Below are positions 1,045-42,210 of a stretch of DNA of 64,000 bases, in pieces. How positions within the stretch are numbered: the stretch's first letter is position 1; the number at the start of each line of letters is the position of its first letter. The notes under the pieces were generated by a model that did not search any database, was not told where the DNA came from, and worked only from the letters and a program-made list of their open reading frames with translations. The DNA comes from Anaeromyxobacter paludicola (GTDB lineage Bacteria; Myxococcota; Myxococcia; Myxococcales; Anaeromyxobacteraceae). The stretch lies in the NCBI RefSeq assembly GCF_023169965.1, contig NZ_AP025592.1, positions 2,666,001 to 2,730,000 of the forward strand. The letters run 5' to 3'. A program made the translations under genes and the position numbers.

Positions 1045-1366
1045 CGTGACCTCCCTGCTCGCCCTCCGGCAAGACGATCGCCGGACGAGGCCGGCGAGCG
1101 TCCGGCGACGATGCAAAGGTAACGCCCTCACCCATACCGCGGGTGCGTCTCACTCCAAGTGCGCGCGCGGACGGGCGGGGCTGCGCCGTGTTGCCCCTTA
1201 CGACGCAAGCCCCGATCCACGCAGATTGTGCGGAAGCGGCGGGCGCGAGACAGATTTTGCGGCGCCGCGGCGGGCCTGCCGGGGGCGCCTCTGCCGCTCC
1301 CGCGCGCGCCCATGGCACTCAATTGGATTGCGACCGGCGCCTCGAGCCCGCGCCGGGCGCGCAATC

Positions 1367-1400
1367 TGCTAACGTCCCCAGCCGTTCCGCGGTCCGGAAC
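1367..1400 (+). promoter_or_regulatory. Candidate extended -10 promoter and inverted repeat before the hexahaem operon
   Basis: TG-C-TAACGT (1367-1375) fits an extended -10 with no clear -35 box. Just downstream, GTTCCG (1384-1389) and CGGAAC (1395-1400) form a 6-bp inverted repeat with a 5-nt spacer in the would-be leader, a possible operator or leader hairpin. The remainder of the 1045-1412 gap shows nothing else I can support. Confidence 0.35.
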
Positions 1401-1412
1401 GGGGGGACCCAC

Positions 1413-2213: not shown

Positions 2214-2569
2214 TGCGCACCGTCCGGAGGTGGACGCTCGCGCTCGGGGCCGGCGCGATCCTCGCGCTGCTCGCCCCGGCCGCCCGCGCGGCGCCGGGCG
2301 CGAAGGCGGCGAAGGCCGGGCCGGCCCGCGCCGGGCCCGCGGACTGGCAGCAGGAGTTCGCGGACGTCTGCTCGAAGACGCAGGACGCGATGACCCTCTC
2401 CGAGCCCGAGCTCCGCTCGCTCGTCACCCGCTGCGACGCCCTCGAGCCGCGGCTCGAGGCGCTCGAGGAGTCGGGCCGCAAGGTCTGGCTGAAGCGGCTG
2501 CAGCTCTGCCGCGACCTCTACCAGTTCGTGCTCGAGACGAAGGAGCAGGAGCGGAAGGACAAGTCCTGA
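2213..2569 (+). CDS. Small periplasmic protein between two hexahaem cytochromes
   Basis: A 118-residue protein. A signal peptide (residues about 1-27, ending ARAAP) is followed by an Ala/Gly/Lys-rich linker and then a mostly helical acidic/basic segment with three Cys (in ADVCS, TRCD and QLCR). No haem motif is present and I do not recognise a family. Start ATG 2213 overlaps the upstream stop, and its own stop overlaps the next ATG at 2569. It is therefore translationally locked between two paralogous hexahaem cytochromes, which suggests a dedicated partner, assembly factor or third subunit. GTG 2210 is an alternative start, but the overlapping ATG is more usual. Confidence 0.75.
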   Translation: MRTVRRWTLALGAGAILALLAPAARAAPGAKAAKAGPARAGPADWQQEFADVCSKTQDAMTLSEPELRSLVTRCDALEPRLEALEESGRKVWLKRLQLCRDLYQFVLETKEQERKDKS

Positions 2570-3369
2570 TGCGGATCCCCGGCGCCCTCCTCCCCGCGCT
2601 GCTGCTCCTCTCCCCGCTCGCCGCCGCCGGCATGGAGCTGCCGCCGCCGCACACCTACGGCCGGGTGATCATGGGCCGCCGCGCCGGGGCGGCGGGGGTG
2701 CCGCCGGTGGCCTTCGACCACTGGCGCCACCGCGCCCGGTACACCTGCCGGCTCTGCCACGTGGACGTCGGCTTCGCCATGACGGCCGGCGCCTCCCAGG
2801 TCTCGGCGGAGACCAACCGCGGCGGCTTCCACTGCGGCGCCTGCCACAACGGCAAGACCATCTCCGAGGGCAAGCCGATCTTCGCCGCCTGCTCGGGCTC
2901 CGCCGACGTGGGCTCGTCGCCCGCCTGCGTCCGCTGCCACGCCGGCGTGGACGGCGACCGGCTCCGCCGGGACTGGGACGCGTTCGCGGCGAAGCTCCCG
3001 CGGGCCCGCGGCGGCCACGTGGACTGGGAGAAGGCCGAGGCGCAGGGGCTCGTGATCCCGGCGGACTTCCTCCCCGGCGTCTCCTTCGAGCGGCGCAAGC
3101 TGCAGATGTCGAAGGAGGTCCCCTTCGAGTCGAAGGGCTGGATGCAGGGGAACATCGTCTTCTCGCACCCGAAGCACACCGTCTGGAACGGGTGCGAGGT
3201 CTGCCACCCGGAGATCTTCCCCAGCACCTCGCAGGGCGCGGCCCGCACCTCGATGCTGCAGATCGCGAGCGGCGAGACCTGCGGGGCGTGCCACGGCAAG
3301 GTCGCGTTCCCGATCGCCGAGTGCGAGAAGTGCCACGCCAACCGGCGCCCGGGCGGCGGCGGGCCCTAG
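2569..3369 (+). CDS. Periplasmic hexahaem cytochrome, paralogue of the 1413 gene
   Basis: A 266-residue protein with a signal peptide (residues about 1-21, LLLLSPLAAA). Six CXXCH motifs (CRLCH, CGACH, CVRCH, CEVCH, CGACH, CEKCH) sit at the same relative places as in the 1413-2213 protein. The shared motifs VDWEKAE and FSHPKHTVWNGCE point to a tandem duplication of a two-module c7-like cytochrome. It is the last gene of the operon. Start ATG 2569 overlaps the preceding stop. No T-rich terminator is evident after it; about 140 nt of GC-rich sequence precede the next gene. Probable periplasmic electron carrier. Confidence 0.9.
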   Translation: MRIPGALLPALLLLSPLAAAGMELPPPHTYGRVIMGRRAGAAGVPPVAFDHWRHRARYTCRLCHVDVGFAMTAGASQVSAETNRGGFHCGACHNGKTISEGKPIFAACSGSADVGSSPACVRCHAGVDGDRLRRDWDAFAAKLPRARGGHVDWEKAEAQGLVIPADFLPGVSFERRKLQMSKEVPFESKGWMQGNIVFSHPKHTVWNGCEVCHPEIFPSTSQGAARTSMLQIASGETCGACHGKVAFPIAECEKCHANRRPGGGGP

Positions 3370-6369: not shown

Positions 6370-7254
6370 TCAGCGCGTCACCGAGAACAGGTCCACCCGG
6401 TTGTTCCCGCGGTCGGCCACCACCATCTCGCCGCCCGGCGTGAGGCAGAGCTGCGCCGGGTAGTAGACCGCGCCCTCGGTCCAGCCGAGCGCGAGCCGCC
6501 GGCCGAGGTAGCTGCCGTCGATGCCGAGCAGCACCACGCCCATCCCGTTCTGGTCCACCACCAGCAGCGTCCCCTTCCCGTCGTGCGTCAGGTACGCGGG
6601 GAAGTTCATGCTCTCCTTCAGCCCCTTCGAGAGGAGCTTGAAGGCGGCGCCGCCCTTCTCCACCGACCAGACCTCCGCCCCGCGCGCGTCGAGCGCGTAG
6701 ACGGTCCCGGCGGCGTCCACGGTGAGGTCCACGAAGATCCCGCCCTTCGGCAGCTCCACCTTGCTCTTGAGCGCGCCGGTCGGGTCGAGCGCCAGCACGG
6801 CGTTGGAGGTCTGGTCGAGGACCCAGACGTCGCCGGCGGCGTCGAGCTTGAAGGCTTGCGGCACCACTCCCGCGGCGCCCTTGGGCTCGAGCCAGCCCTG
6901 GAAGGCGCCCTTGGGATCGAGCCGCGCGATCTTCTTCGCCTTGCGATCGAGGACGAGGAGGTTGCCCTGCCCGTCGAGCTGCACGCGCACCGGGTGCGTG
7001 ACCTGGGCGAGCTTGATCTCCGTCCCGCCGCTCACCACCCCGTCGCGCCACTCGTAGGAGACGAGCCGCCCGTTGCCGGTGTCGGCCACCACCAGCGTCC
7101 CGTCGGCGCACCCCACCCCCTCCGGCGCCTTGAGCGGCGCGTTCTTGGAGTCGGCGTAGACCGGTCCGCGCGAGACGAAGGCCAGCTCGGCCCGGGCCGC
7201 CGGGGCGGCGGCGAGGAGCGCCAGCACCAGGACGTTCTTCATGGACGTGGGCAC
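6370..7254 (-). CDS. Secreted NHL-repeat beta-propeller, last gene of the nanowire operon
   Basis: About 294 aa. Signal peptide MKNVLVLALLAAAPAARA, then repeated NHL-type blades (for example VADTGNGRLVSYEW, VLDRKAKKIARLD, VVADRGNNRVDLF) covering the mature protein, consistent with a six-bladed propeller. GTG 7254 is preferred because AGAGGTGATC, an extended match to the anti-SD, ends 3 nt before it; ATG 7242 in the same frame is the alternative. It starts 5 nt after the 16-haem gene stops. NHL propellers recur beside nanowire cytochrome genes, probably as extracytoplasmic scaffolds or protein-binding partners (inference). It has no haem sites. Confidence 0.8.
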   Translation of the reverse strand: MPTSMKNVLVLALLAAAPAARAELAFVSRGPVYADSKNAPLKAPEGVGCADGTLVVADTGNGRLVSYEWRDGVVSGGTEIKLAQVTHPVRVQLDGQGNLLVLDRKAKKIARLDPKGAFQGWLEPKGAAGVVPQAFKLDAAGDVWVLDQTSNAVLALDPTGALKSKVELPKGGIFVDLTVDAAGTVYALDARGAEVWSVEKGGAAFKLLSKGLKESMNFPAYLTHDGKGTLLVVDQNGMGVVLLGIDGSYLGRRLALGWTEGAVYYPAQLCLTPGGEMVVADRGNNRVDLFSVTR

Positions 7255-7259
7255 GGTGA

Positions 7260-8528
7260 TCACCTCTTGAACTTCTCGTGACACTTGGTGCAGAGCTCGG
7301 TCGTCGTCGGGAACGGGTTCATGTGCTTGTACTCGGTGCCGTGCGCCCGGTGGCAGGAGAGGCAGTCGAGGATCAGGTTCGGGTTGCGCGGGTCCTTGTG
7401 CTTGGCGCCGATCGGGTGGGTCGAGTGCTTCTGCCAGTCGTGGCAGGTGCCGCAGAGCTCGATGGTCTCGGGCCGCTGCATCATCAGCGCGGCGGGGGCG
7501 CCGTGCGGGTCGTGGCAGCGCGTGCACTGGCCGTCGGCGATGGGCTTGTGCTTGGTCTCGGAGAGCGCCTGGCGCTTCACGGTGTCGGCGTGGCAGCTGC
7601 CGCAGACCGTCACCATGTTCGCCTTCAGCATCCCCTTCTGCTTGCCGGCGTGCGGGCTGTGGCAGGAGAGGCAGGCGTCGCCGTTCGACACCGCCCAGTG
7701 CACGCGGGTGCGGTCGAGCATGCCCGCCACCTTCTGCGCGTGGCAGCCCTTGCAGAGCGTCACCCCGGCCTGCTTCGGCTGGAACTTCCTCGCCGAGCCG
7801 GGCGGCTCGTGGCACTGCGCGCACATCGCCTTCGCCACCGGCGGGTGGACGTTGTCGTAGAGCATGCCGCGCACGTTCGAGCCGTGCGGGTCGTGGCAGG
7901 AGGTGCAGCGCGCGCCGGCCACCGGGTAGTTCTGGTGCTTCGCCACCAGCGCCGGCCGCTCCATCTTGTGGCAGCCGACGCAGAGCTCCGGGACGCCGCC
8001 CTTGAGGAGGCGCTCGCCCCTGGCCGAGCCGTGCGGGTCGTGGCAGGTGGCGCAGTCCTGCTCCACCGGCCGGTGCTTGAACTTCACGCTCGCCGCCGCT
8101 GTGACCACCGCCTTGTGGCAGCCCGCGCAGAGGTCCTTGGGCGCCTTCACGAGGTTGTTCTTGAAGCCGGAGGCGTGGGGGTCGTGGCAGGTGAGGCAGC
8201 CGCCGTCGGCCACCGGCTTGTGCGTGCTCCGCGGCTTCTCGGGCACCACCTGGTGGCAGGCCGCGCAGGTCCGGCCCGGCTCGGCCGAGAGCATCTTGCC
8301 GTGGTTGGAGGCGTGCGGGCTGTGGCAGCCGGTGCAGTCGCGCGACCGGACCGGCGTGTGGACGAACTTCCGCTTCAGCACGGCGTCGAAGTCGCCGGAG
8401 TGGCAGTCGAGGCAGACCTTGCCGTTGGCGCCGGGCTTCAGCTTGAGCTTGTCCGGGCCGGCGGCGCGGGCGGCGCCGGCGGCGAGGAGCGCGGCGGCGA
8501 GGAGGACCAGGGGGGTACGCGAGCGCAT
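7260..8528 (-). CDS. 16-haem periplasmic cytochrome (doubled CXXCH repeats)
   Basis: A 422-residue protein with signal peptide (ends ARAAG). I count sixteen CXXCH motifs, arranged as repeating pairs: one site followed by DPHGS/SPHAS-type residues, then a second site about 20-30 residues on. This is the 'doubled CXXCH' architecture (PF09699/TIGR01905). Such proteins behave as linear haem wires. Start ATG 8528 lies 11 nt after the stop of the 26-haem gene, and the stop is 5 nt before the NHL gene. It probably carries electrons across the periplasm or along the outer membrane to the OmcS export or assembly site (inference). Confidence 0.9.
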   Translation of the reverse strand: MRSRTPLVLLAAALLAAGAARAAGPDKLKLKPGANGKVCLDCHSGDFDAVLKRKFVHTPVRSRDCTGCHSPHASNHGKMLSAEPGRTCAACHQVVPEKPRSTHKPVADGGCLTCHDPHASGFKNNLVKAPKDLCAGCHKAVVTAAASVKFKHRPVEQDCATCHDPHGSARGERLLKGGVPELCVGCHKMERPALVAKHQNYPVAGARCTSCHDPHGSNVRGMLYDNVHPPVAKAMCAQCHEPPGSARKFQPKQAGVTLCKGCHAQKVAGMLDRTRVHWAVSNGDACLSCHSPHAGKQKGMLKANMVTVCGSCHADTVKRQALSETKHKPIADGQCTRCHDPHGAPAALMMQRPETIELCGTCHDWQKHSTHPIGAKHKDPRNPNLILDCLSCHRAHGTEYKHMNPFPTTTELCTKCHEKFKR

Positions 8529-8539
8529 GGGGTCTCCCG

Positions 8540-10498
8540 CTACTTGGACGCGACGTGGCAGGCGTCGCACTGCCGCGACGCGAAGGGCGCGTGCTGGTTG
8601 ACCTTGAAGAGCTTCCCGTCCTTCGAGGCGTGGGGGTCGTGGCAGCTCACGCAGCGGATCGCCTTGGGGTCGATGCCGAGGTGCGAGCCCGAGAACGTCT
8701 TGTCGGTGACGTCGTGGCACTGGGCGCAGACCTCGCCCACCGGCCCGGCCACGAGCGACGGCTGCGCCGAGGCGTGGGGCTTGTGGCAGGTGAGGCAGTC
8801 GCTCGCCGGGGCGTGCGCCTTCTCCTTGCCGAGCCGCTCCTTCACCGGCTTGTGGCAGGCGAAGCAGAGGTCGGGCGGCGAGGTGAGCAGGAGCCGCTTC
8901 AGCTTCGAGCGGTGCGGGCTGTGGCAGCCGGTGCAGGAGCCCTTGGCGAAGGCCGGGTGGACGCTCGTCGCGCCGGCGAGCTCCTTGCCGGTCGCGGCGT
9001 GGCAGCCGAGGCAGAGCGTCTTCTGCTCGCTGCGCGCCATGCCGGGGGCGTTGGAGCCGTGCGGGTCGTGGCAGTCGAGGCACTTGCCCTCGCCGAACGG
9101 CTTGTGGGTCGTGCCGCCCTCCGGCGCCGCGGTGAAGAGCTGCGCGTGGCAGCCCTCGCAGAGCTTCGAGCCCTGGGCCTTGAGCAGCTTCGGGTTGTCG
9201 GAGGCGTGGCCGTCGTGGCAGGCGGTGCAGTTGCCGTCCTGCACCGGCCGGTGCGTGCGCACCTTGACGAAGCGGGTCTCGGCGTCGCGGTGGCAGGAGT
9301 AGCAGACCCGGTCCACGCGCGCCTTGAAGAGGTTCCGGGTGGAGGCGCCGTGGGGGTCGTGGCAGGCGCCGCAGTCGCCGGCCGCGAAGGCGGCGTGCAT
9401 CACCTTCTTCTTCGCGGCCTGCTCCTTCACCTTGCCGTGGCAGCTCGCGCAGATCTGCTCCGCCGGCACCTTGAGGAGCTTGGCGTTCCCGGAGGCGTGC
9501 GGCTGGTGGCACGAGGCGCAGCCCTGGGGCGAGGTCATCGGCTTGTGCTGCACCGCCGCCGGCTCGGCGAAGCGCTTGTGGCAGGTCTGGCAGAGCTTGG
9601 CGCCGGCGGCGCGGGCGAGCTTGGGCGCCGCCGAGCCGTGCGGGTCGTGGCAGGAGAGGCACTCGCCCTTCTTCACCGGGGCGTGCTGCACCTTGCCCGC
9701 GAAGGCCTTGGCGTCGTGGCAGCCCTCGCAGAGCTGCGCGCCCTTCGCCTGCACCGCGAACGGCTTGGGCGACTTCGGCGAGGCGTGGCAGGCCTCGCAG
9801 GACTGGGTGGCGACCGGGTTGTGCAGGCTGCCCCGGAGCAGCTTCGGCCCGTCCGACGAGTGCGGGTCGTGGCAGTTGGTGCAGGTGGTGACCGGGTAGC
9901 CGCCGTGCGCCTTCTGGAACGAGGCGTTCGACTGGTGGCAGCCGGCGCAGAGCTTCGACTGCTCGGACTTGAGGAGGTCCTTCACCGTGGAGGCGTGGGC
10001 GGCGTGGCAGGAGCCGCAGCCGTCCTTCAGCACCGCGTGCACGGTCTTGCGCTGGAACGGCTCACGCTGGTGGCAGCCGAAGCAGGCCTCCGCCCCCTCC
10101 GCCTTGAGGAAGTGCGGCGCCTTCGAGCCGTGCGGGTCGTGGCACTTGGTGCACTCGCCGGTGCGGAGCACCTTGTGGACGACCGGCTTGTCCATGCCGA
10201 TCGACTCCTTCTTGTGGCAGGAGTAGCAGAGCGCGTTCCCGGTCTGCTTCAGGAGGAGCTTGCCGGAGGTGCCGTGGCGCAGGTGGCAGGACTCGCACTT
10301 CTGCTCCTTCACCGCGGCGTGGGCGTACTTCGCCTCCTTGAACTTGTCGGCCGCCTTCTGGTGGCAGTCGATGCAGCTCTTGGTCTTGAACTTCCGCTCC
10401 GCCGCGCCGGCGCCGGCCGGCGCCAGGAGCGCCAGGGCCGCGCCGAGCGCGAGCGCCAGGGCGAGCAGGCTCCACCACCGATTCGAGAGCTCTTTCAA
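8540..10498 (-). CDS. 26-haem periplasmic cytochrome (doubled CXXCH repeats)
   Basis: A 652-residue protein. The N-terminal hydrophobic segment (residues about 9-33) is a signal peptide ending AGAGAAE. Twenty-six CXXCH motifs run from residue about 42 to four residues before the C-terminus, in alternating CXXCH-xPHxS and plain CXXCH units. The only available start is TTG 10498, preceded by GAGGTCACC; no ATG occurs before the haem repeats. Together with the 16-haem neighbour it could form a long conductive path. I recall that Geobacter omcS regions also carry a very large multihaem cytochrome, but this needs a synteny check. Confidence 0.9.
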   Translation of the reverse strand: MKELSNRWWSLLALALALGAALALLAPAGAGAAERKFKTKSCIDCHQKAADKFKEAKYAHAAVKEQKCESCHLRHGTSGKLLLKQTGNALCYSCHKKESIGMDKPVVHKVLRTGECTKCHDPHGSKAPHFLKAEGAEACFGCHQREPFQRKTVHAVLKDGCGSCHAAHASTVKDLLKSEQSKLCAGCHQSNASFQKAHGGYPVTTCTNCHDPHSSDGPKLLRGSLHNPVATQSCEACHASPKSPKPFAVQAKGAQLCEGCHDAKAFAGKVQHAPVKKGECLSCHDPHGSAAPKLARAAGAKLCQTCHKRFAEPAAVQHKPMTSPQGCASCHQPHASGNAKLLKVPAEQICASCHGKVKEQAAKKKVMHAAFAAGDCGACHDPHGASTRNLFKARVDRVCYSCHRDAETRFVKVRTHRPVQDGNCTACHDGHASDNPKLLKAQGSKLCEGCHAQLFTAAPEGGTTHKPFGEGKCLDCHDPHGSNAPGMARSEQKTLCLGCHAATGKELAGATSVHPAFAKGSCTGCHSPHRSKLKRLLLTSPPDLCFACHKPVKERLGKEKAHAPASDCLTCHKPHASAQPSLVAGPVGEVCAQCHDVTDKTFSGSHLGIDPKAIRCVSCHDPHASKDGKLFKVNQHAPFASRQCDACHVASK

Positions 10499-10520
10499 GG
10501 TGACCTCGGGCGCGGTCGCG

Positions 10521-12266
10521 CTAGTAGCCGATGCGGGTCAGGTAGACGGCCACGGCGTGGGACTTCCGGATCTTGGCGTTCGACGCGCGCAGCGCGCGGT
10601 TCAGGTTCTCGCCGATGAGCTTCTTCCCGATGACGGCGCGCGCCGCCTCGTAGGGCTGCTGCTGCCCCGGGGTGGCGCTCACGAGCCGCACCAGGAAGTA
10701 CTGCCCCTCGACCGCCTGCAGCCGGCAGTCGCCCGGGCGGGCCCCGGAGAGCTGGTTCGCGAGCTCGGGCGGGAGGGCGGTGGCGCTCACCACGGTGTTG
10801 TCGAGCTGGGCCTTGCGCTGGTCCTCCTTCACCTGCCCGGACGCGTTGGCGCGGAGCCAGCGGAAGTCGGTGCCGGCGCGGAGCTTGTCGAAGGCGGCCT
10901 GCGCGTCCTGGGCGCTCGAGAAGGTGAGGCTCTCGAGCTTGTACATGGCCGGGGTGGCGAAGTCGGCCTTGTGCTTCGCGTAGTAGGCGCGCCCCTCGTC
11001 CTCGGTGACCTTCACGTCGGGCATGATGGCGCGCTCGAGGTAGGCGCTGAACAGCGTGGCCTCCTTGAACTCGGCCATGTAGCGGCGGAACTCGGCGCTC
11101 TCGGCGATCTTCTGGCGGCGCGCCTCGGCCAGCACCAGCCGCTGCCGGAGCACCACCTGGAAGACGTGGGGCTTGGCGGCGTTGGCGCGGCGCTCCTTGA
11201 TGGGCGCGTCGATGCCGTGGAAGAACTTCTCCTCCATGCCGCGGATGAGGTCGGCCACCGTGAGCGGCTTGTCGCCCTCGATGGTCGCGAGCACCCGCTG
11301 GTCCTTGCGCAGCGCCGCGACGCCCGGCTTCCTCGCCTCGAGGTCGAGCTTCGCGAGGAGCTTCTTGTCGGTGCGCGCGTGCTGCTTCGCGAGCGCGTCG
11401 TAGTACTTGAAGGTGGCCGACTGCCGGGCGGCCTCGAGGGCCCGCTGCTCGGCCCTGGCCCGCTCGGCGGGGACCTCGGGGTAGCGCGCGCCGAGCACCT
11501 GCACCACCGTGAAGCCGTCCGCGAGCTTCACCACCCGCGCCGCGCCGGCGGGCGCCGTGGCGATCACCTTCGCCACCTCCGGCTTCACGCCGGCGGCGCC
11601 GGTGTAGCCCGCCTCGAGCCGGCCCTGGGCCTTCTTCGCGGCGACGAGCTTCGCCCCGAGCGCCTCGAAGCTGCCGCCGGCCGCGAGCGCCTTCTGGAAG
11701 GCCTTGGCGTCGGCCTCCTTGGCGAAGAGCAGCGAGCGGACCTGGTACTCGCGGACGGCGTCGCGGTAGAGCCGCTCGACGACCTTCGGGTCGGGCTTCA
11801 CGCCGGCGACCGCCCGGGCGCGGACGCGCACGAGGAGCTGCGTCGTCTCCTCGTCCTGGATGGCCTGCTTCACCTCCGGGAGGTCCTCGAGCCCCATCTC
11901 CCGGGCCTCGATGACGCAGAGCTTCATGTCCACCAGCCGGTCGAGGACCGGCTTGAAGTCGTGCTGGCTCGTGGGCGCGGCGTGGCCCTCCTCGTGGGCG
12001 GCGGCGAGCGCGTCGGTGACCTGCTGGAGCGTGATCTCCTCGTCGTCCACCCGCGCCACCGGCAGCGTCGCCGACTGCTCGGAGAAGAGCGGCGCCTGCA
12101 CCTCGCGCCCGTCGCGGACGAGGTACGCGCGCATCTCGCGCTGCGCCCCGGCGGGCGCGGCGGCGGGCGCGGGGGTCGGCGCGGCGGCGGGCGCGCCCTG
12201 GGCGCGCGCGAGCCCCGGCGTGGCGAAGGCGAGGAGGAGAGTGGCGGTTGCGGTCCGGTGGTTCAC
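10521..12266 (-). CDS. SurA/PpiC-like periplasmic chaperone with two parvulin-like domains
   Basis: About 581 aa, signal peptide ending ARAQ. A SurA-N-like helical region (VDDEEITLQQVTDALAAA onward, residues about 70-160) precedes a first parvulin-like unit (residues about 170-270) and a second (residues about 440-545). GTG 12266 has AAAGG 8 nt before it; GTG 12272, six bases upstream, is nearly as likely. It lies between outer-membrane components and the large cytochromes, which suggests it assists folding or export of the beta-barrel or of OmcS subunits. Whether the parvulin domains keep isomerase activity is not clear from sequence. Confidence 0.8.
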   Translation of the reverse strand: MNHRTATATLLLAFATPGLARAQGAPAAAPTPAPAAAPAGAQREMRAYLVRDGREVQAPLFSEQSATLPVARVDDEEITLQQVTDALAAAHEEGHAAPTSQHDFKPVLDRLVDMKLCVIEAREMGLEDLPEVKQAIQDEETTQLLVRVRARAVAGVKPDPKVVERLYRDAVREYQVRSLLFAKEADAKAFQKALAAGGSFEALGAKLVAAKKAQGRLEAGYTGAAGVKPEVAKVIATAPAGAARVVKLADGFTVVQVLGARYPEVPAERARAEQRALEAARQSATFKYYDALAKQHARTDKKLLAKLDLEARKPGVAALRKDQRVLATIEGDKPLTVADLIRGMEEKFFHGIDAPIKERRANAAKPHVFQVVLRQRLVLAEARRQKIAESAEFRRYMAEFKEATLFSAYLERAIMPDVKVTEDEGRAYYAKHKADFATPAMYKLESLTFSSAQDAQAAFDKLRAGTDFRWLRANASGQVKEDQRKAQLDNTVVSATALPPELANQLSGARPGDCRLQAVEGQYFLVRLVSATPGQQQPYEAARAVIGKKLIGENLNRALRASNAKIRKSHAVAVYLTRIGY

Positions 12267-12465
12267 GTTCACGTCCTTTCGCGGGCGGCCGGGCGATCGC
12301 CCGGTTGCTCGCTGCTCCGGTGGAGTACCGACTGCATCGCGTGTGCCTCGACCAAGGGACAGGGCGGACGCGCGGATCCGCGGCTTCTCGCGCCGCTCCG
12401 GCGCCGCGCGCACTCCGGGTCACGCAAGGGCTGCACGACCCCGCGCGCGCTGGTCCGATTTTGCG

Positions 12466-13629
12466 TCACGGCCTGCGCTCCTCGGTCGCCCGCGTGGGCG
12501 CCGACGAGGCGGGGGCCTGCTCGGTCGCTCCGAAGAGCGACACCGCCGCCGAGCGCGAGAGGCGGCAGGCGAGCGCGCTGGCGGTGCTCACCCTGCCCTG
12601 CTCGAAGAGCCAGACGCGGTCGTTGCCGGTGGCGTGCGAGGTCGCCTGCCAGACGAGCCGGCCGGCGCGATCGAGCGCCATGGCGGTGAAGTCCATCGAC
12701 GGGGCGTCCCCGTCCACCAGCTCGCGGACGTAGCCCGCGATCACCACGTCGGTCTGCAGCACCTCGATCATGGCGCGCGCGGTGTCGAGCGAGACGCCGC
12801 CCTCCATGATCACCCGGTAGCGGCGCAGCCGATCGCGGGTCACGCCCGGCTCGACGACCTGCAGGCGCCGGTACGCCGCGAGCTGGCGCGTGAGCTCGAG
12901 CGCGAGCAGCTCGCCGGCGCGGCGCCGCGAGGTCTCGTTGAAGAAGGGCAGCACCGCCACCGAGTAGCCGCCGCCCGGGTCGAACTGCGGCGAGCGGAAG
13001 GCGACCCGCGGCTCGAACCGCCCCTCGTCCGGGCACGGCGGCGCCGCCACGCCGGTCTCGAGCGCCCGCGCGAGCGAGCCGCGCAGCCGCGCCAGCTCGC
13101 GCGCCTCGAGGGCGCGCGGGTCGCGCACCAGCCCCAGGCCGAGCAGGCCGGGCGAGTCGTCGCCGGCCCGCGCCACGCCGTCGATCCAGAGGAGGCGCGC
13201 CTCGGGCGTCGCCGAGACGAGCCGCGCCGTGACCGCGAGCCGCGGGGCGGGCTGGCTCGCGTAGGCCTCCACCTCGGCGAGGAGGATCGCGTCCACCCCG
13301 AGCTCCTCCCGCGCCGCCGCGGCGGAGGTGGCGTCGATGCCGCCGGTGAAGCGGAGCCGGTGCTTCTCGAGGAAGTCCTCGACCGGCTCGCCGGAGACCA
13401 CCTGGAGGCCCGCGCCCTGCGCCACCCGCAGGAGCTCCCCGTCGAGCTCCCGCAGCGGCACCGGGCCGGCCGCCAGGTTGTCGGCCGGGAGCAGCGCCAC
13501 CTTGAGGACCCGCGCCGGCGGGCGCGCCGCGTCGCCGCCGGCCGCCCGCGGCCCCCCGCAGGCGGCGCCGAGCAGCGCCAGCAGCGCCAGCGCGGCGCTA
13601 CTGCTTGAAGAGCCGGTCGAGGAGGTCAT
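12466..13629 (-). CDS. Outer-membrane lipoprotein with two TolB-N/CsgG-like domains
   Basis: A 387-residue protein with a lipoprotein-like signal (LLGAAC, Cys about residue 24; the -3 residue is atypical). Two similar alpha/beta halves start VLKVALLPADNL and GYSVAVLPFFNET. The VAVLPF-N pattern is the hallmark of the TolB-N/CsgG/GNA1162 fold. Its start overlaps the end of the neighbouring GNA1162-like gene by 32 nt, implying coupled translation. A 199-nt gap separates it from the chaperone gene downstream, and I see no gene or terminator there. It may be a subunit or partner of an outer-membrane secretion channel for the filament (inference). Confidence 0.65.
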   Translation of the reverse strand: MTSSTGSSSSSAALALLALLGAACGGPRAAGGDAARPPARVLKVALLPADNLAAGPVPLRELDGELLRVAQGAGLQVVSGEPVEDFLEKHRLRFTGGIDATSAAAAREELGVDAILLAEVEAYASQPAPRLAVTARLVSATPEARLLWIDGVARAGDDSPGLLGLGLVRDPRALEARELARLRGSLARALETGVAAPPCPDEGRFEPRVAFRSPQFDPGGGYSVAVLPFFNETSRRRAGELLALELTRQLAAYRRLQVVEPGVTRDRLRRYRVIMEGGVSLDTARAMIEVLQTDVVIAGYVRELVDGDAPSMDFTAMALDRAGRLVWQATSHATGNDRVWLFEQGRVSTASALACRLSRSAAVSLFGATEQAPASSAPTRATEERRP

Positions 13630-14179
13630 TGACGAGGCTCTCCGTGACGTCGTTCACCGGCGCGCCGCCGCCGCCGAACATCCGGTCCATCATGGTGAGG
13701 CCGCCCTTGGTGGACGACGCCGACCAGATGACCCGCCCGCTCGAGGCCTCGAACATCTGCACGCTCGCCGAGACCACGTTCGCCGAGGCCGAGCCGGACC
13801 GCACCTCGCCGTACTCCTTCACCACGCCGCCGATCACCGCGTCGCACTTGATGAGCCCGCCGAGCTTGGTGATCTCCTCCGGGCTCGGGTTGATCGGGTT
13901 GGCCACGCCGAGCCGGCTCAGGCCGCGCGCCACCTCGCCGTTCGGCAGCACGTAGATGGAGCCGCTCGCGAGCAGCATGTTGGCGAAGACGTCGCGCACC
14001 CGCTCCGCGCCGGCCGAGTCGCGCGAGAGGTTGCCGAAGGGGAGCACCGCCACGACCTTCACCGAGCCGAAGTCCATGTTGGCGTCGTGGAACTTGTGCC
14101 CGCCGCCGCTGGCGCAGGCGCTCGCGAGCGCCGCGGTGGCGAGGACGAGGAGGGTCGGGAGCCGGAGCGGGGTTCTCAT
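13598..14179 (-). CDS. GNA1162/DUF799-like lipoprotein, CsgG-related
   Basis: A 193-residue protein with a classical lipobox (ALASAC, Cys about residue 22). The mature domain (VVAVLPFGNLSRDSAGA..., then IKCDAVIGGVVKEYGEV and a strand with ASSGRVIWSAS) is the GNA1162/CsgG-type fold. CsgG relatives form outer-membrane pores or pore-associated lipoproteins. It starts 9 nt after the beta-barrel gene and overlaps the next lipoprotein gene. That position beside a beta-barrel protein in an OmcS locus makes an export or assembly role likely but unproven. Confidence 0.7.
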   Translation of the reverse strand: MRTPLRLPTLLVLATAALASACASGGGHKFHDANMDFGSVKVVAVLPFGNLSRDSAGAERVRDVFANMLLASGSIYVLPNGEVARGLSRLGVANPINPSPEEITKLGGLIKCDAVIGGVVKEYGEVRSGSASANVVSASVQMFEASSGRVIWSASSTKGGLTMMDRMFGGGGAPVNDVTESLVNDLLDRLFKQ

Positions 14180-14188
14180 CGGAGGGTC

Positions 14189-16396
14189 CTAGAGCTGGAT
14201 TGCGAGGCTCGCGGTGAACGACCGCGTGTCGGTGGTCCCGGTCGGCGCGTCGGAGCCGAGCAGGCTGTAGTTGAGGTCGAGGTAGGCGTGAGGGGAGAAG
14301 TTCCAGCGCGCGCCCGCGGAGGCGGCGTGGGTCTTCGCGTCGAGCGCGGTGTCGAGGGACTCGGTGTACGCGAGCCGGAGCAGGAGCGAGCCGTCCGGGA
14401 ACGGGGTGAGCCCGCCGCTGAAGGTGGCGAGGGTGGTGGGGCGGGTGCCCTTGATGATCCGCTGCACGGCGGTCGAGAGGTACAACGCGGGGAACGGGCT
14501 GATCGACAGCGCGCCGTCCACGCGCTCGTTCTCCAGGCTGCTGTCGGGGAGGCCGCCGCCGGTCTGGCGCAGGCTCGAGTACGCGTAGGTGCTCGAGAGC
14601 GTCACCACGCGGTTCGGGATGAGCGAGGCGGTCGCGACCACGGTGGGCCCGCGCGCGACCGCGCCGGTCTCGAGCAGGTTGTAGGCGTAGCCGGTCGAGA
14701 GCAGCAGGTCCACGCCGCGGTAGAGCGCCGCCCGGTTCACCAGCGTGGCCGAGTTGAGCTCGGCGCTGCCGCGCGGCGTCTGGGTGAGCTGCCCGCTGTA
14801 GGTGAGGGCGTGGGTGAGCGTCGGGAGCGGCGTCGCCGCGAGCGAGGCCGAGTACTGCCAGGCGCCGTCGTGCTGCCCCGGGGTGCCGGAGGCGCTCACC
14901 CCGGTGTCCTGCCGGGCGACGCGCGCGGCGAGCTTGAGCCAGTCCCGCAGGGCCCGCTCGAGCGAGAGCCCGTTCTGCAGCGTGTAGGCGGTGTTGCCGC
15001 GGCTGTAGGAGAGGTTCCCGGCGAAGTCGTAGGCGAGGAGCGGGTCGGCGGTGAGCTGCTGGCGCATCGCCAGCGAGGCGCTGTGGGAGCTGAGGGTGGA
15101 GCGGCCGCGCACCTGCGCCGCCGGGACCACCTGGTAGGCCTGGAGCTCGGTGACGAGCACGTCGGCGTAGCGCCGGTCGGTGGTCAGGGCCGGCGGGAGC
15201 GGCTGCACCACCAGCTTCACGAACGGCGCCTGGACCTGCTGCAGGGTGAGCTCGTACCGGTTCAGGAGCGCGTTGAAGATCACCGTCCCGGCGAGCGCCA
15301 CCTGCGTCCAGTGCAGGTTGTCGTCGCTGCGCCAGGCGGTGAACGAGAGCGCGGTCGAGATCTCCGGCGGCAGCGGCCGCTGCACGTAGACGTAGAGGGT
15401 GTTGAGCTGCGTGGTCGGGTCGGCGAACTGGAGGCCGAGCTCGCGCGCGGCGGTGTCGCCGGCGATCGACGCCGACCAGCCCAGGTTCAGGTTGGCGGAG
15501 ACGTCGGTCTTCCCGTCCACCAGCAGGCCGTTCGGGCCGAGGGTGTCGCTCTGGGGCAGCGCGGCCGGGGGCTCGACGAGGGAGAGGCCGGCGGAGGGCA
15601 GCTGCTGCGTCGCCACCGTGCCGCCCGCGCCGGCCACGCTGGTGTCGGAGATCCGGTTCGAGAAGGCGTAGTTGGCCTGGACGCTGGTCCGCCCGCCGTG
15701 GAAGGTGTCGCCGTAGGTGACGTGCGCGCTGTTGAGGAGCCCGTCGGTGGTCGTGCCCGAGAGGTGATCGACCGAGTCCTGCGCCTCGAGCGTGTACTGC
15801 ACGCTGAGCTGCCGGACGGCGTTGTAGCTCCAGCTCGCGAGCAGGTCGTTGAGCGTCGAGTCGGCGAAGCGGCGCGACACGTCGTAGGTGTCGGCGCGCG
15901 TGAGGCGCAGCTCGAGGTTGGGCAGGTCGACCGGGTGCCAGCCGAGGTGCAGCGTGTAGGTGTCGTTCACCTCGTGGAGCCGGCCGCCGCCGAGCGAGGT
16001 CTGGGTGGACTCGTCCTGCCGCTGGTAGCTCAGGTCGCCGCCGAGCACCGGCGGCCCGAGGTGCAGGCGGACGAAGCCGGACCCGCGCCAGGCGTCGCCG
16101 CTCGCGGAGAGGCCGGTGCCCGAGCTCCACTGCCGGTCGTCCTCGAAGAGCCCGTTCCCCTCGAGCCGGACCAGCGGGGCGAAGGAGCGCGAGAAGCCGA
16201 GGCTGTAGCGCTGGGTGAGCTCGTCCACCGTGGAGGTGGTCACGTGCCCCTGCGCGTCGGTGGTCCGCGTGTCCACGTGCGAGTACCCGGGCTCCAGGTA
16301 GAGCGAGAGGCCGTCCGCGCCGGCCGGGCACGGCGCCAGGGCGAGCGCGAGCGCCAGGGCGACGGCCGGGAGGAGGTGGGGGGCGGCCCTCCGCAT
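14189..16396 (-). CDS. Outer-membrane beta-barrel protein of the nanowire locus
   Basis: A 735-residue protein. Signal peptide (about 1-27, ending PAGADG) is followed by continuous alternating hydrophobic/polar strands with aromatic girdles (for example LSLYLEPGYSH, YLDLNYSLLGS). The C-terminus, FTASLAIQL, suits a BAM-recognised last strand. No Cys-rich or haem motif is present. The ATG at 16396 shares one base with the stop of the propeller lipoprotein gene. Size and context fit either a conduit barrel around multihaem cytochromes or an export channel for OmcS. Residues about 280-470 look less barrel-like and may be an extra beta domain. Confidence 0.75.
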   Translation of the reverse strand: MRRAAPHLLPAVALALALALAPCPAGADGLSLYLEPGYSHVDTRTTDAQGHVTTSTVDELTQRYSLGFSRSFAPLVRLEGNGLFEDDRQWSSGTGLSASGDAWRGSGFVRLHLGPPVLGGDLSYQRQDESTQTSLGGGRLHEVNDTYTLHLGWHPVDLPNLELRLTRADTYDVSRRFADSTLNDLLASWSYNAVRQLSVQYTLEAQDSVDHLSGTTTDGLLNSAHVTYGDTFHGGRTSVQANYAFSNRISDTSVAGAGGTVATQQLPSAGLSLVEPPAALPQSDTLGPNGLLVDGKTDVSANLNLGWSASIAGDTAARELGLQFADPTTQLNTLYVYVQRPLPPEISTALSFTAWRSDDNLHWTQVALAGTVIFNALLNRYELTLQQVQAPFVKLVVQPLPPALTTDRRYADVLVTELQAYQVVPAAQVRGRSTLSSHSASLAMRQQLTADPLLAYDFAGNLSYSRGNTAYTLQNGLSLERALRDWLKLAARVARQDTGVSASGTPGQHDGAWQYSASLAATPLPTLTHALTYSGQLTQTPRGSAELNSATLVNRAALYRGVDLLLSTGYAYNLLETGAVARGPTVVATASLIPNRVVTLSSTYAYSSLRQTGGGLPDSSLENERVDGALSISPFPALYLSTAVQRIIKGTRPTTLATFSGGLTPFPDGSLLLRLAYTESLDTALDAKTHAASAGARWNFSPHAYLDLNYSLLGSDAPTGTTDTRSFTASLAIQL

Positions 16397-17808
16397 CAGA
16401 ACCGCTCACCCGCCACGGTCACCGCGTAGGGCTCCTCGCCCACCGGCACGGTCGAGAGGAGCTGGTGGCTGGCGAGGTCGAGCACGGCCAGGCCCGGCAG
16501 GGACGGCACGAGCGCCAGGAGCGCGTTCTCCGCGTCGTCGATGGCGAGCCAGGTGACGGTCCCGGGGACGGGGAAGAAGTCCACCGGGATGAGCGAGAAG
16601 GCGTCGTAGACGCGCAGCCGGCTCTCGCCGCGCAGCGCCACGTAGAGGAGATCGGTCCGCGGATCGACCTTGAGCGCGGTGGCCCCGAGCCCCACCGTGA
16701 CGCGGCCGGCCGGCGCGAGCGACGGCAGCGAGAAGGCGTCGAGCTGCGGCGAGCTCGAGTAGATCACGTAGAGCTTGTCGCCGGCCCGGTCGAGCTGGGC
16801 GCGGATGGGGCCGGCGCCGGTCGGGATCGAGCCCGCCACCGCGCGGTTGGCGACGTCCACCACCGTCACGCTGTTCGACCCCTCGTTGAGCACGTAGGCG
16901 CGGCGCCAGGCCCGATCGACCAGCAGCGACGCCGGGGCGGTGCCGGTCGGGAGCCGCGCCCGCTCCACGCCGGTGTCGGGATCGAGGAACGAGAGGGTGT
17001 TGGAGCCGGCGTTGAGGACGAGGAGCGTGCGGCCGTCGGGCGCGAGGGCGAGCTCGATGGGGCGGTCGCCCGGCGAGAGCCTGAGCCGCGGCTGCTCCAC
17101 GTCGCTCGTGAGGTCGTGCACCTGCACCTGGTCCTCGCCGGAGAGCGCGACGTAGAGCCGCGCGGAGGGGCCCTGGGAGAGCGCGAGGCCGCGCGGCTCG
17201 CGGCCGGTGGCGAGCACCGCGAACACCTCGCGGCGGCGCCGGTCGAAGAGGGTGAGATCGCTGCCGCCCGCGTTGGAGCAGACGCCGTCGAGCGCGGGGG
17301 GCGGGCGCGCCGGGGCGGCCACGGCGAACCGGGGCGTGAAGGCCACGCCGGCCTGGAACGAGGGCTCGTAGCGGAGCGTGAGGCCGAGCACGGTGGCCGC
17401 GCCCGCCTTCACCTCGAACGGGCCCTCGAGGGGCGACGGCTCCTTCGGGACCAGCAGCTGCGCCGGACCGTCCGGGGCGAGGACGGCGGCCTTCGTCACC
17501 TGCAGCTCGAAGCCGCGGTAGGCGCCCGGCGGGAGCCGGCCGGAGGCGAGCAGCCGCTGCCGCCTGGGCTCGGGGCCCGGGAGCTCGGCGAGGGCGAGCG
17601 CGAGCGGCACCGCGCCGCCGTCCTCCCGCACCGCCGCGAGCGAGGCGAGCGAGAGCGAGAGCCGGTCCGCGTCCTGGGGCCACCCTTGGAGGTAGAGGAA
17701 GACGGCGCCCTCCTCGGCGAGCGGCGGGCGCGCGGCGAGGCGCGGCGTGAGGAAGCCCGCGCAGCCCGTGAGGCCGAGCGACACGAGGGTGGCGAGCAGC
17801 GTCTTCAC
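16396..17808 (-). CDS. YVTN-type beta-propeller lipoprotein
   Basis: A 470-residue protein with lipobox LTGC (Cys 16). An N-terminal beta domain (residues about 35-170) precedes a seven-bladed YVTN-like propeller (from about residue 195; blades such as RLYVALSGEDQVQVHDL, RAYVLNEGSNSVTVVDV, LLYVALRGESRLRVYD). It is the first gene after the omcS terminator and probably opens the eight-gene assembly operon, either by readthrough or from a promoter not resolved here. It is predicted to be anchored in the outer membrane. There are no haem sites; a scaffold or adaptor role is inferred. Confidence 0.8.
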   Translation of the reverse strand: MKTLLATLVSLGLTGCAGFLTPRLAARPPLAEEGAVFLYLQGWPQDADRLSLSLASLAAVREDGGAVPLALALAELPGPEPRRQRLLASGRLPPGAYRGFELQVTKAAVLAPDGPAQLLVPKEPSPLEGPFEVKAGAATVLGLTLRYEPSFQAGVAFTPRFAVAAPARPPPALDGVCSNAGGSDLTLFDRRRREVFAVLATGREPRGLALSQGPSARLYVALSGEDQVQVHDLTSDVEQPRLRLSPGDRPIELALAPDGRTLLVLNAGSNTLSFLDPDTGVERARLPTGTAPASLLVDRAWRRAYVLNEGSNSVTVVDVANRAVAGSIPTGAGPIRAQLDRAGDKLYVIYSSSPQLDAFSLPSLAPAGRVTVGLGATALKVDPRTDLLYVALRGESRLRVYDAFSLIPVDFFPVPGTVTWLAIDDAENALLALVPSLPGLAVLDLASHQLLSTVPVGEEPYAVTVAGERF

Positions 17809-17839
17809 GGCTGGCCTCCGACTTCGCCGGGTGAGTGGA

Positions 17840-17876
17840 AATAAAGCAGGGAGGGGCCGCGCAGGCGGCCCCTCCC
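17840..17876 (-). terminator. Intrinsic terminator after omcS
   Basis: A perfect 12-bp stem (GGGAGGGGCCGC at 17849-17860 with its complement at 17865-17876, 4-nt loop) is followed on the minus strand by GCTTTATTT. It lies 32 nt after the omcS stop and before the propeller lipoprotein gene. It would limit readthrough and let the filament subunit be made in large excess over the export genes. Confidence 0.75.
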
Positions 17877-17907
17877 CCCGTTCACTACGACCTATGGCGC
17901 GACGGAA

Positions 17908-19305
17908 TTAATCCTTCGCGTGGCACTTGTTGCAGAGCGACCGCTGGGCGAACGCGAAGTTCGTCGCCGGGCGGTCGTACATGGCCGCCTGGTAGGTCGC
18001 CTGGTTCATGCCCATGCTGTACTGGCCGTAGGCGCCCTCCGCGACCGGGGAGTCGCTGCCCGGCCACTGCCCGCCGAGGGTGAGGAACTCGGCCTTGTTG
18101 TTCCAGCGGGTCATGCTGTCGAAGCCGCCGGCGTGGGCGCGGTGGCAGGAGAGGCAGGACACGTTCTCGGAGCCGAGCGACGGGCCGCCGGTCTGCGTGC
18201 CGTCGTTCACGGCGTGGCCGGCGAGGGTGGCGATGACGGTGGTGCCCTCCTCGTACGGGACGAGCGAGGTGTAGGAGCCGGCGCTCGTGCCGGTGAGGTC
18301 GCCCGACTTCTTGTAGGCGTTGTAGATGGCGGCGATGGTGGTGCCGTTCGCGGCGCCGGCCAGGTTGTTGGCGGTGGCGGTGAGCTTGGCGCCGTTGCCG
18401 GCCGGGTGGATGAGGGCGGTGTTGGCGGCGTTCACGTTGTCGTTGTGGATCGAGCGGTGGCAGTTGGAGCACCACTCGGACATGCCGGCGCCGTAGGCGA
18501 CGCGGGTCTCGGTGACGGCCTCGGTGCGGTTGTAGGTGGCGGGGGCGACGGCGACCGGCGGGTTGGCGTTGAACGCCATCACGCCCGGGACCGACATCTG
18601 GGAGTAGTTGCTGGGGGCGAGGAGGCGGTAGACGCCCACGGCCTCGTCGGCGGTCGGCGCGGCGCCGTAGGAGCCAGGGCCGCCGATGGGCAGCGTGGCG
18701 GAGCCGAAGGCGGTGTTGGTGATGGTGCCGTTCACGTCGGTGATGCGGGCGCGGCTGTGCGGGTCATGGCAGGAGGCGCAGCTCAGGCTGGCCGCGGGGT
18801 AGTTGCCGCCCGGGGCGGTGGTCAGGGTGGCGTCGGCGACGAGGCCGTAGTCCTGGGCCACGACGTTGTGGCCGTGGCGCTCGCCCTTGGAGGTGACCGG
18901 CGCGCCGTAGCTGGCCGTGCCCTTGTAGGTCTGCGTCAGCCAGGCGAAGTCGCCGCCCGGGGTGCGCTCCACCGGGGCGCTGCCGGCCGCGGGGGCCGGG
19001 AAGGTCATCACGTGGTAGCTGCTCGGGGCGGTGTCGGCGGCGGCGTGGCAGTTGAGGCAGGTGGAGCTGTTGTCCGAGCCCTGCAGCAGGTAGTTGTTGC
19101 CCTGGAACTGGACGGTCGAGGCCTTCCCGCCCGAGTTCCAGCCGGTGAGGCCGGTGTTCCGGCCGCCCGACATCGACTTGTTGCCGGACGAGTTGTGCAT
19201 CGAGTGACAGCCGTCGCAGTACGCGACGCCGCCGTCGTGGAAGGCCCAGGCGTTGCCGGCAGCGATCGTGGCAACGAGGGCCAGTGCGAATCTGAACGAC
19301 TTCAT
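17908..19305 (-). CDS. omcS: OmcS-family hexahaem cytochrome nanowire subunit
   Basis: A 465-residue protein. ATG 19305 follows GGAGGAG. Signal peptide ends NAWA; the mature protein starts FHDGGVAYCDGCHSMHNSS, nearly the start of Geobacter sulfurreducens OmcS as I recall it. Six CXXCH sites (CDGCH, CLNCH, CASCH, CSNCH, CLSCH, CNKCH) occur in the OmcS order. Landmark strings match too: ADTAPSSYHV, RTPGGDFAWL, GERHGHN, TTAPGG-YPA, SCHDPH, APATYNRTEA, TRVAYGAGMSEWC, SCHRAHA-GFDSMTR and the C-terminus LCNKCHAKD. OmcS polymerises into extracellular micrometre-long haem filaments. Similarity over the full length and conserved His residues support the same bis-His filament fold here. Confidence 0.95.
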   Translation of the reverse strand: MKSFRFALALVATIAAGNAWAFHDGGVAYCDGCHSMHNSSGNKSMSGGRNTGLTGWNSGGKASTVQFQGNNYLLQGSDNSSTCLNCHAAADTAPSSYHVMTFPAPAAGSAPVERTPGGDFAWLTQTYKGTASYGAPVTSKGERHGHNVVAQDYGLVADATLTTAPGGNYPAASLSCASCHDPHSRARITDVNGTITNTAFGSATLPIGGPGSYGAAPTADEAVGVYRLLAPSNYSQMSVPGVMAFNANPPVAVAPATYNRTEAVTETRVAYGAGMSEWCSNCHRSIHNDNVNAANTALIHPAGNGAKLTATANNLAGAANGTTIAAIYNAYKKSGDLTGTSAGSYTSLVPYEEGTTVIATLAGHAVNDGTQTGGPSLGSENVSCLSCHRAHAGGFDSMTRWNNKAEFLTLGGQWPGSDSPVAEGAYGQYSMGMNQATYQAAMYDRPATNFAFAQRSLCNKCHAKD

Positions 19306-19387
19306 GTGTGTGCTCCTCCAGGCTGCTGTTTTTGCGCCGACCGGCGAACTTCCTCGGAGACCGGTACGGCGCGCACCCGGGGCACCT

Positions 19388-19403
19388 AGCATCGGCTGTG
19401 CCA
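19388..19403 (-). promoter_or_regulatory. Sigma-54 (-24/-12) promoter candidate for omcS
   Basis: The minus strand reads TGGCACAGCCGATGCT. GG and GC have exactly the spacing of the TGGCACG-N4-TTGCW consensus, with TGGCAC fully matched and one mismatch in the -12 TTGC. The start site would fall near 19377, giving a leader of about 72 nt with a good Shine-Dalgarno sequence. omcS-type genes are reported to depend on RpoN in Geobacter. Confidence 0.65.
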
Positions 19404-19442
19404 CGATATTTGCCTGGAATCGCTGGCTTTTCGCCGATCGGC

Positions 19443-19462
19443 GGTGGGTGAGAAGACCCACC
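19443..19462. promoter_or_regulatory. Inverted repeat upstream of the omcS promoter (possible activator site)
   Basis: GGTGGGT-N6-ACCCACC (7-bp arms) is centred about 50 bp upstream of the -24 element. A 12-bp palindrome CGCCGATCGGCG (19432-19443) abuts it. The position suits an enhancer-binding-protein site, though these sites usually lie farther upstream. The rest of the 19306-19740 gap shows no gene. Confidence 0.4.
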
Positions 19463-19740
19463 CGCCTCGTGCGGCCCGAGGCCGACCTCCCCCTCCCCTG
19501 CCGATGATGCAGTCGGTAAGGACCCGTCCATGAGGTCAAATCGAAGTCACCCGTTCACGGGACAAACCGAGCCGGAACTGCGGTCCGCCGGACCCGGTCC
19601 GTGCATCCCCCGTTCGTAGGGTCCGACCGCTCCCGCGCGCCATGGGGCGCTCGCTTGCACGTCGATGGACGTGGGTGGCTGTAGGTGGTGGTGAGTGACC
19701 CAGCCGCCAGCCGGGCCCGGCGTGGGCCGCGCGCCGCCCT

Positions 19741-20781
19741 TCAGCGCTGCCCGGAGGCGGCGGCCGGCTCGCTGGAAGCGGCGGCGCCCTCCGCCGGCGG
19801 CGCCGGCGGGTCCTGCACCGAGTACTGGAAGACGCTCACGCCCCTGCGCGCGCTCTGCGACACGAAGACGCGGTCCCCCGCGACCGCGAGGTCGAGCGGG
19901 GCCACGAGCTGCCCGGGCCCCCAGCCGCGGCCGCCGAACTCGCCGCGGAACTCGAGCTCGGGCGTGAAGACCATCACCACCGAGCGCAGCACGTCGCCCA
20001 CCAGGAACCGCCCCTGGGCGTCGCGCGTGATCCCCCCGACCACGTTGAACTTGCCGGGCGAGCTGCCGCGGTCGCCGAAGCTCGTGACCTTGCCGGAGGG
20101 GGAGACGACGAAGACGGTGAAGAGCGGGGCGACCGTGAAGAGGTAGTCGCCCGCCTCGTCCACGTTGAAGGCCTGCATGGCCGGGTTGCCGGCGCGGACC
20201 CCCTTGCCGATCTTGCCGAGCTCCTTCTCGAGCTCGTGGAAGAAGTCGTGCGTCTCCTCGACGCGCCCCTGGAGGTCGGCCACGAGCACCTTCATGGTCC
20301 CGCGCTGGGCGAGGAAGATGCGCCGCCCGCGGCTCACGAGGACGTCGGGCGAGAAGTCCTTGGCGAAGTCGTCCGGCACCTGCGTGAGCTCGACCCGCGC
20401 GCGCGGCTCGCCGCGGAAGTTGCAGCGGGTGAGCACCTGCTTGCCCTTCTCGCTCGCCAGCACCAGCAGCTCGCCCGTGGGGAGCGGCGCCACCGCGAGC
20501 ACGTTGCCGAGCTCCGCGTCCTGGCCGAACCGGTAGAGCTCCATCCCGTTCTCGTCGAAGACGCCGACGCTGCCGTCGGTCCGGTCCACGACGTACAGCT
20601 CGCGGTGCGCCGGATCCCAGACGAGCGAGGCCCAGCTCGAGGGGACCGGCCCGTCGCTGTCGGAGAGGTCGTAGAGGAACGTGCCCTTCGCGGCCTTCCC
20701 CGGATCGTACGGGGCGGGCGGCAGGGGCGGCGCCGCGAGCGCGGCCGCGAGGAGCGCGGAGGTGAGCGCCTGGAGGAGCAT
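19741..20781 (-). CDS. Secreted NHL-type six-bladed beta-propeller upstream of omcS
   Basis: A 346-residue protein with signal peptide (residues about 1-17) and propeller blades throughout (ELYVVDRTDGSVGVFDENG, FLVGDVLRSVVMVF, RVFVSQSARRGVSVFQY). The C-terminal tail is Pro/Ala/Ser-rich. It precedes omcS on the same strand with a 435-nt gap that contains the omcS promoter, so it is probably a separate transcript. A TTATGGT sequence about 10 nt upstream of the SD region may be its -10. I recall an NHL protein next to omcS in Geobacter as well, which would support a conserved role, but synteny must be checked. Confidence 0.8.
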   Translation of the reverse strand: MLLQALTSALLAAALAAPPLPPAPYDPGKAAKGTFLYDLSDSDGPVPSSWASLVWDPAHRELYVVDRTDGSVGVFDENGMELYRFGQDAELGNVLAVAPLPTGELLVLASEKGKQVLTRCNFRGEPRARVELTQVPDDFAKDFSPDVLVSRGRRIFLAQRGTMKVLVADLQGRVEETHDFFHELEKELGKIGKGVRAGNPAMQAFNVDEAGDYLFTVAPLFTVFVVSPSGKVTSFGDRGSSPGKFNVVGGITRDAQGRFLVGDVLRSVVMVFTPELEFRGEFGGRGWGPGQLVAPLDLAVAGDRVFVSQSARRGVSVFQYSVQDPPAPPAEGAAASSEPAAASGQR

Positions 20782-42164: not shown

Positions 42165-42196
42165 TTCGGGGTGGGCCGTGTGCAACGGTTGTGCCC

Positions 42197-42210
42197 GCAA
42201 CCCCGTGGCC
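42197..42210 (-). promoter_or_regulatory. Possible sigma-54 promoter of the CbcL-like gene
   Basis: The minus strand reads GGCCACGGGGTTGC. GG to GC spacing is exactly that of -24/-12 elements and the -12 TTGC is perfect; the CAC of the -24 box is shifted. A start near 42185 would leave a 20-nt leader. Weaker than the omcS element. Confidence 0.4.

Follow-up and report, generated by a model that had tools for sequence, protein, structure and literature searches.

An osc-type locus in Anaeromyxobacter paludicola with a candidate cytochrome nanowire subunit, probably exchanged independently of its export machinery

Genes and features of the locus

The locus lies on the minus strand of the A. paludicola genome, which is a single contig of 4.59 Mb, within a window of 64,000 nucleotides (the whole stretch of DNA that was analysed, genome positions 2666001-2730000). 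All ten genes that an earlier note on this DNA had placed on one strand are present, in the order given there and with open frames. They are listed here from 5' to 3', in window positions:

19741..20781, minus strand: NHL/propeller-type secreted protein (NHLup) 5' of the proposed subunit gene; full-length homologues adjoin the hexahaem gene in most relatives
17908..19305, minus strand: hexahaem cytochrome of the OmcS family and proposed filament subunit, with a signal peptide, 6 CXXCH and conservation of 12 His ligands
17848..17877, minus strand: terminator-like hairpin in the gap between subunit gene and machinery genes; 13-pair stem
16396..17808, minus strand: OscD-type beta-propeller lipoprotein; lipobox LTGC, YNCE propeller (E 1.3e-12), synteny
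14189..16396, minus strand: OscE-type outer-membrane beta-barrel; AlphaFold model with pLDDT 85
13598..14179, minus strand: OscF-type PelC/GNA1162-like lipoprotein of one domain; profile matches to PDB chains
12466..13629, minus strand: OscG-type lipoprotein with two PelC/GNA1162-like halves; profile matches
10521..12266, minus strand: OscH-type chaperone of the periplasm, with a pair of parvulin domains; two Rotamase_2 stretches (E 2.4e-25)
8540..10498, minus strand: OscI-type 26-haem cytochrome; 26 CXXCH
7260..8528, minus strand: OscJ-type 16-haem cytochrome; 16 CXXCH
6370..7242, minus strand: NHL propeller that closes the eight-gene block at the GSU2493 position; NHL E 2.2e-12

Counting of CXXCH motifs confirmed the six, 26 and 16 haems that the note had assigned to 17908-19305, 8540-10498 and 7260-8528, respectively; the start codon of the 16-haem gene is the ATG at 8528. 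The Pfam matches listed above bear out its propeller lipoprotein, its NHL propeller and its two-parvulin SurA-like chaperone, and a GNA1162-like assignment of 13598-14179 is also supported. Matches of OscG and of OscH (EpsD-like PPIase) remained below cut-off, and NHLup has a weak ScyF-like NHL match. A terminator had been proposed before the eight-gene block, and a hairpin is indeed found at 17877-17848, with 11 G-C pairs among the 13 of its stem. A search of the locus for sigma-70-like promoters found none, and no Rfam families were found in the window.

The hexahaem cytochrome

The product of 17908-19305, a protein of 465 residues, matches OmcS (6ef8, 6nef) from residue 22 to its C-terminal end (phmmer, E 3.7e-113) and is 56% identical to OmcS of G. 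sulfurreducens (PDB 6ef8) over 403 aligned positions. A signal peptide precedes the mature start FHDGG, which aligns with FHSGG of OmcS, and the C-terminus QRSLCNKCHAKD corresponds to QRALCNKCHAKD of OmcS, so that the two proteins have both mature ends and the order of the six CXXCH motifs in common, as had been noticed earlier. An insert soon after His16 sets the window protein apart.

OmcS has 12 His ligands, of which 11 come from its own chain and one, that of haem 5, from the neighbouring subunit (PMC6584659). The window protein keeps 12 out of 12, i.e. those of the six CXXCH motifs and six further histidines at OmcS positions. Across 76 aligned relatives, essentially no variation is seen at 11 of the 17 OmcS histidines, and His16, which from the OmcS structure papers we take to be the inter-subunit ligand, is retained in 67 and absent in nine; together, the 11 invariant histidines and His16 would account for the 12 axial ligands of OmcS. 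Of the hexahaems at the 5' end of a block, 27 were checked and every one retains His16. The nine proteins lacking it fall in two clades; where the surroundings were read, their genes lie downstream of the block or in the opposite orientation.

The AlphaFold model of the hexahaem protein has low confidence (pLDDT 44), as expected without haem, and when this low-confidence model was used for a fold search of the PDB, 6ef8_A was the sole match with Z > 2 (Z 16.4, rmsd 4.4, 310 residues). This fold match and the complete set of ligands agree with the structural likeness to OmcS that had been claimed. Judged by its ligands and modelled fold, the protein is a member of the OmcS hexahaem family (OmcS, OmcT, GSU2501 and relatives).

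A family tree was made from a searched set that lies outside the G. sulfurreducens genome (best match to 6ef8 72%), and thus without GSU2501, OmcT and OmcJ. In this tree, the window hexahaem belongs to a clade (support 100/98) with proteins of A. oryzae, A. oryzisoli, a Myxococcales MAG and three Geobacteraceae (H2geo, AOG1 and G057), and falls outside the 31-row group (99/89) that holds 6ef8 and its close Geobacter orthologues. It is therefore not assigned to OmcS sensu stricto, the orthologue of GSU2504, and the designation OmcS-type in the earlier note is right for the family (identity, ligands, fold) but not for orthology. OmcS is used here as a family name.

The assembly and export block

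OscF gave profile matches to the PelC chain 9h80_C (E 5e-6, covering positions 32-150 of 179), to 5t11 (E 9e-7) and to GNA1162 (4hrv, E 6e-6) and has a lipobox-like SAC; it is PelC-like in both profile similarity over the domain and lipobox, with GNA1162 scoring about equally. In OscG, the C-terminal half matches 5t11/5t0z/PelC (E 0.001-0.005) and the N-terminal half GNA1162 (E 0.1). Among the matches of OscF and OscG to solved structures with E up to 1, PelC, GNA1162 and LpoB are listed and no CsgG chain. The GNA1162 part of the earlier description as CsgG/GNA1162-like stands, now with PelC beside it, and a CsgG-like channel is ranked behind a PelC-like exporter.

The model of OscE is well predicted (pLDDT 85) and forms a barrel of about 28 strands, as counted by hand from the strands listed for the model, 11 of which precede and 17 follow a beta-rich inserted domain at residues ~260-410. 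Its fold matches are general to barrels (TonB receptors, LptD, ushers, MtrB). An outer-membrane barrel together with a PelC-like lipoprotein is reminiscent of the PelB/PelC exporter of Pel polysaccharide. However, the window has two lipoprotein genes, one of them for a two-domain protein, the substrate would be a cytochrome, and the barrels were compared by fold search alone.

Relation to the osc cluster of Geobacter

In G. sulfurreducens, the omcS-companion (osc) cluster comprises GSU2493-2504 (Shen et al. 2025, as presented in PMC12977616 and PMC13194489), and its eight-gene block GSU2500-2493 has been implicated in maturing and secreting OmcS (PMC12977616; PMC13194489). According to the latter source, Geobacter genetics has assigned roles to OscH, OscEFG and OscD, with OscEFG tied to OmcS secretion. 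OmcS homologues have already been noted in Anaeromyxobacter dehalogenans (PMC10954620). The window locus is an osc-type cluster and its kind is thus already known, because it has the same eight genes in the same order as the cluster of Geobacteraceae, with the haem counts, the upstream hexahaem, the PPIase chaperone, the barrel, two lipoproteins and the propellers. It differs in having one hexahaem instead of omcS-omcT-GSU2501, in the sequences of the block proteins (~26-60% identical to the Geobacteraceae proteins compared), in its host, which belongs to the Myxococcota, and in the presence of a second full copy in the genome.

Conservation of the neighbourhood extends past Geobacter and Anaeromyxobacter. 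Neither of the two refuting outcomes named in the earlier note, lack of a structural match to OmcS or of a conserved neighbourhood, was thus observed. The ten-gene order is kept in Anaeromyxobacteraceae (A. oryzae, G003, is among the genomes of the same family), Geobacteraceae, deltaproteobacterial MAGs (Desulfuromonadaceae) and one Acidobacteriota MAG, of the Thermoanaerobaculia. In all fully read loci the order within the block is constant, with 26 haems in OscI and 15-16 in OscJ, and the NHL gene closes the block in relatives too. Among 195 Myxococcota genomes, hexahaem and OscF occur together in 16, the hexahaem alone in two and OscF alone in two. Since this synteny extends over ten genes in many genomes and the match to 6ef8 is so strong, chance can be excluded on sequence grounds as the source of the locus. 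Tandem OmcS-like hexahaems also occur in two Nitrospirota MAGs (L024, L023), with no osc block within the fetched stretch.

Similar in layout are the clade 3A loci (Geobacter daltonii, uraniireducens, luticola and H2geo; PMC12977616), which likewise have one hexahaem gene immediately before the block. The hexahaem of H2geo is in the same clade as that of the window and 69% identical to it. The authors of that study consider the H2geo-type protein either an uncharacterised nanowire or a user of the secretion block before OmcS arose (PMC12977616). A filament from this clade has never been seen so far, and among the G. sulfurreducens paralogues OmcS alone is known to polymerise (PMC12977616).

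The hairpin behind the subunit gene

Two scans found a hairpin 3' of the hexahaem gene in nearly all relatives, and in most of them none of the 40 shuffles equals it; after OscG such a hairpin is rare. Two genomes, G032 and G041, have two hexahaem genes before the block, and there the hairpin follows the OmcS orthologue, not the second hexahaem, so that its position suggests a subunit role for the window gene. It is no specific proof of such a role, because orphan hexahaems can have terminators too. Probably the hairpin is a partial terminator that sets the dosage of subunit versus machinery.

Export and polymerisation of the hexahaem protein

The earlier note had seen a candidate for each of subunit, export channel, chaperone and electron feed. 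That reading is supported by homology, ligands, modelled fold and synteny, and we consider it likely that this is a nanowire locus of the osc type whose hexahaem is exported and polymerised in the following way. The protein would leave the cytoplasm by Sec and receive its haems in the periplasm, as its signal peptide and CXXCH motifs indicate, and the two-parvulin chaperone would help it fold. It would then pass a PelC-like lipoprotein ring, presumably formed by OscF/OscG, and enter the wide barrel of OscE. Polymerisation would take place outside the cell, His16 of one subunit ligating haem 5 of the next, so that the haems form one uninterrupted chain. OscI and OscJ may serve as periplasmic electron feeders or stores, the propellers may act in assembly or filament shape, and the hairpin would cause the subunit to be made in excess over the machinery. 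What the analysis shows is homology, fold, ligands, synteny and the hairpin; that the window protein forms a filament is inferred.

A non-polymerising protein is the main competitor. The hexahaem could be a surface or tip cytochrome of the GSU2501 (OscC) type, and secretion of such a protein could have been the block's first role, an alternative raised in the mBio paper (PMC12977616) and compatible with the position of the window hexahaem outside OmcS proper, together with single-hexahaem Geobacter loci. We regard this as unlikely, though worth keeping in mind: His16 is kept here and lost in two paralogue clades that are not 5' of the block, the gene has the hairpin that in two-hexahaem loci belongs to OmcS and not to its neighbour, and it is the sole hexahaem at its block, as in most relatives. 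It is very improbable that the block is mainly an MtrCAB-like porin-cytochrome conduit across the outer membrane, with the hexahaem at the outer face and OscI and OscJ within the barrel or next to it; this would suit a wide barrel with multihaem partners and a weak fold match of OscE to MtrB (6r2q_B, rank 32), but MtrB is not the best barrel match, MtrCAB has no place for a parvulin chaperone or for a pair of PelC-like lipoproteins, and the Geobacter genetics cited in PMC13194489 connects OscEFG with OmcS secretion, so that the conduit ranks behind the PelC-like exporter.

With polymerisation as the preferred reading, A. paludicola would represent a myxobacterial family outside Geobacter that has a complete and even duplicated nanowire kit. 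How to distinguish wire subunits from look-alike hexahaems has been named an open problem (PMC12977616), and His16, hairpin position and adjacency to the block offer sequence tests for this purpose.

Exchange of the subunit gene

The history of the hexahaem gene seems to differ from that of the machinery. In trees of concatenated OscD-OscJ (FastTree and a quick LG+G4 tree), AOG1 and H2geo group with Geobacteraceae-type loci and all Anaeromyxobacteraceae stay together. The constraint groups for the topology tests were chosen after inspection of the trees and the p values are thus indicative: imposing the grouping of the hexahaems on the machinery was rejected (lnL 992 lower, p-AU 1e-76), as were uniting the single-hexahaem genes of Geobacteraceae (p-AU 1e-47) and a single clade for the upstream hexahaems of Anaeromyxobacteraceae (p-AU 3e-11). 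The hexahaems of three Anaeromyxobacteraceae (G006, G010, G017) nest within the Geobacter OmcS clade (100/90). The hexahaems shared by Myxococcota and Geobacteraceae are ~75% identical in Geobacter sp. AOG1 and G057, and the assembly machinery is 29-56% identical.

Gene order agrees with this conflict, since the three Geobacteraceae carriers (H2geo, AOG1, G057), whose machinery is of the Geobacteraceae type, have the order hexahaem-NHL-OscD instead of NHL-hexahaem-OscD. At locus L107 of G057, NHL-like matches flank the hexahaem on both sides, a pattern that would result if an NHL-hexahaem pair were inserted in front of NHL and OscD genes already in place.

Because the two trees conflict so strongly, exchange of the subunit gene between Myxococcota and Geobacteraceae, without the machinery, is probable; the wire gene seems to have changed places across bacterial phyla, with the exporter genes remaining where they were. 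A less likely history is ancient duplication followed by differential loss. A test bearing on the direction of transfer did not reject a single clade of Myxococcota carriers (p-AU 0.18), and the gene may have moved either way. We lean, with some reserve, towards an exchangeable subunit, in which the transferred gene was set before a resident, deeply diverged machine that still exports its product. If so, the machinery recognises a generic hexahaem fold, different wires could plug into one exporter, and, as the tree conflict suggests, wires may be exchangeable between export machines. Four points go beyond the literature consulted: the subunit exchange, the hairpin, the likeness to PelC and the pattern of His16 retention.

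A second locus and other cytochromes

Another full osc block with its own hexahaem lies outside the window at genome positions 2628000-2640818 (L049, L050). This hexahaem is 48% identical to that of the window and keeps His16, and the two hexahaem genes are ~44 kb apart. A. oryzae likewise has two loci.

Several further cytochrome genes were observed. In the window, 1143-3369 (plus strand) encodes, next to each other, two six-haem proteins that both contain a pair of triheme c7 'nanowire_3heme' (TIGR04257) domains. Two more products, a ten-haem protein with an NrfH-like N-terminus (39572-40375, plus strand) and a fusion of a seven-haem protein to a formate-dehydrogenase-gamma-like cytochrome b (40434-42200, minus strand), are a possible quinol-linked electron input. 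In Geobacter, OmcS wires are charged by PpcA-like triheme c7 proteins (PMC10954620). The A. paludicola genome has two PpcA-like cytochromes of the triheme c7 type elsewhere, at 832034-832291 and 4120467-4120727, with scores of ~80 bits that are below the curated cut-off.
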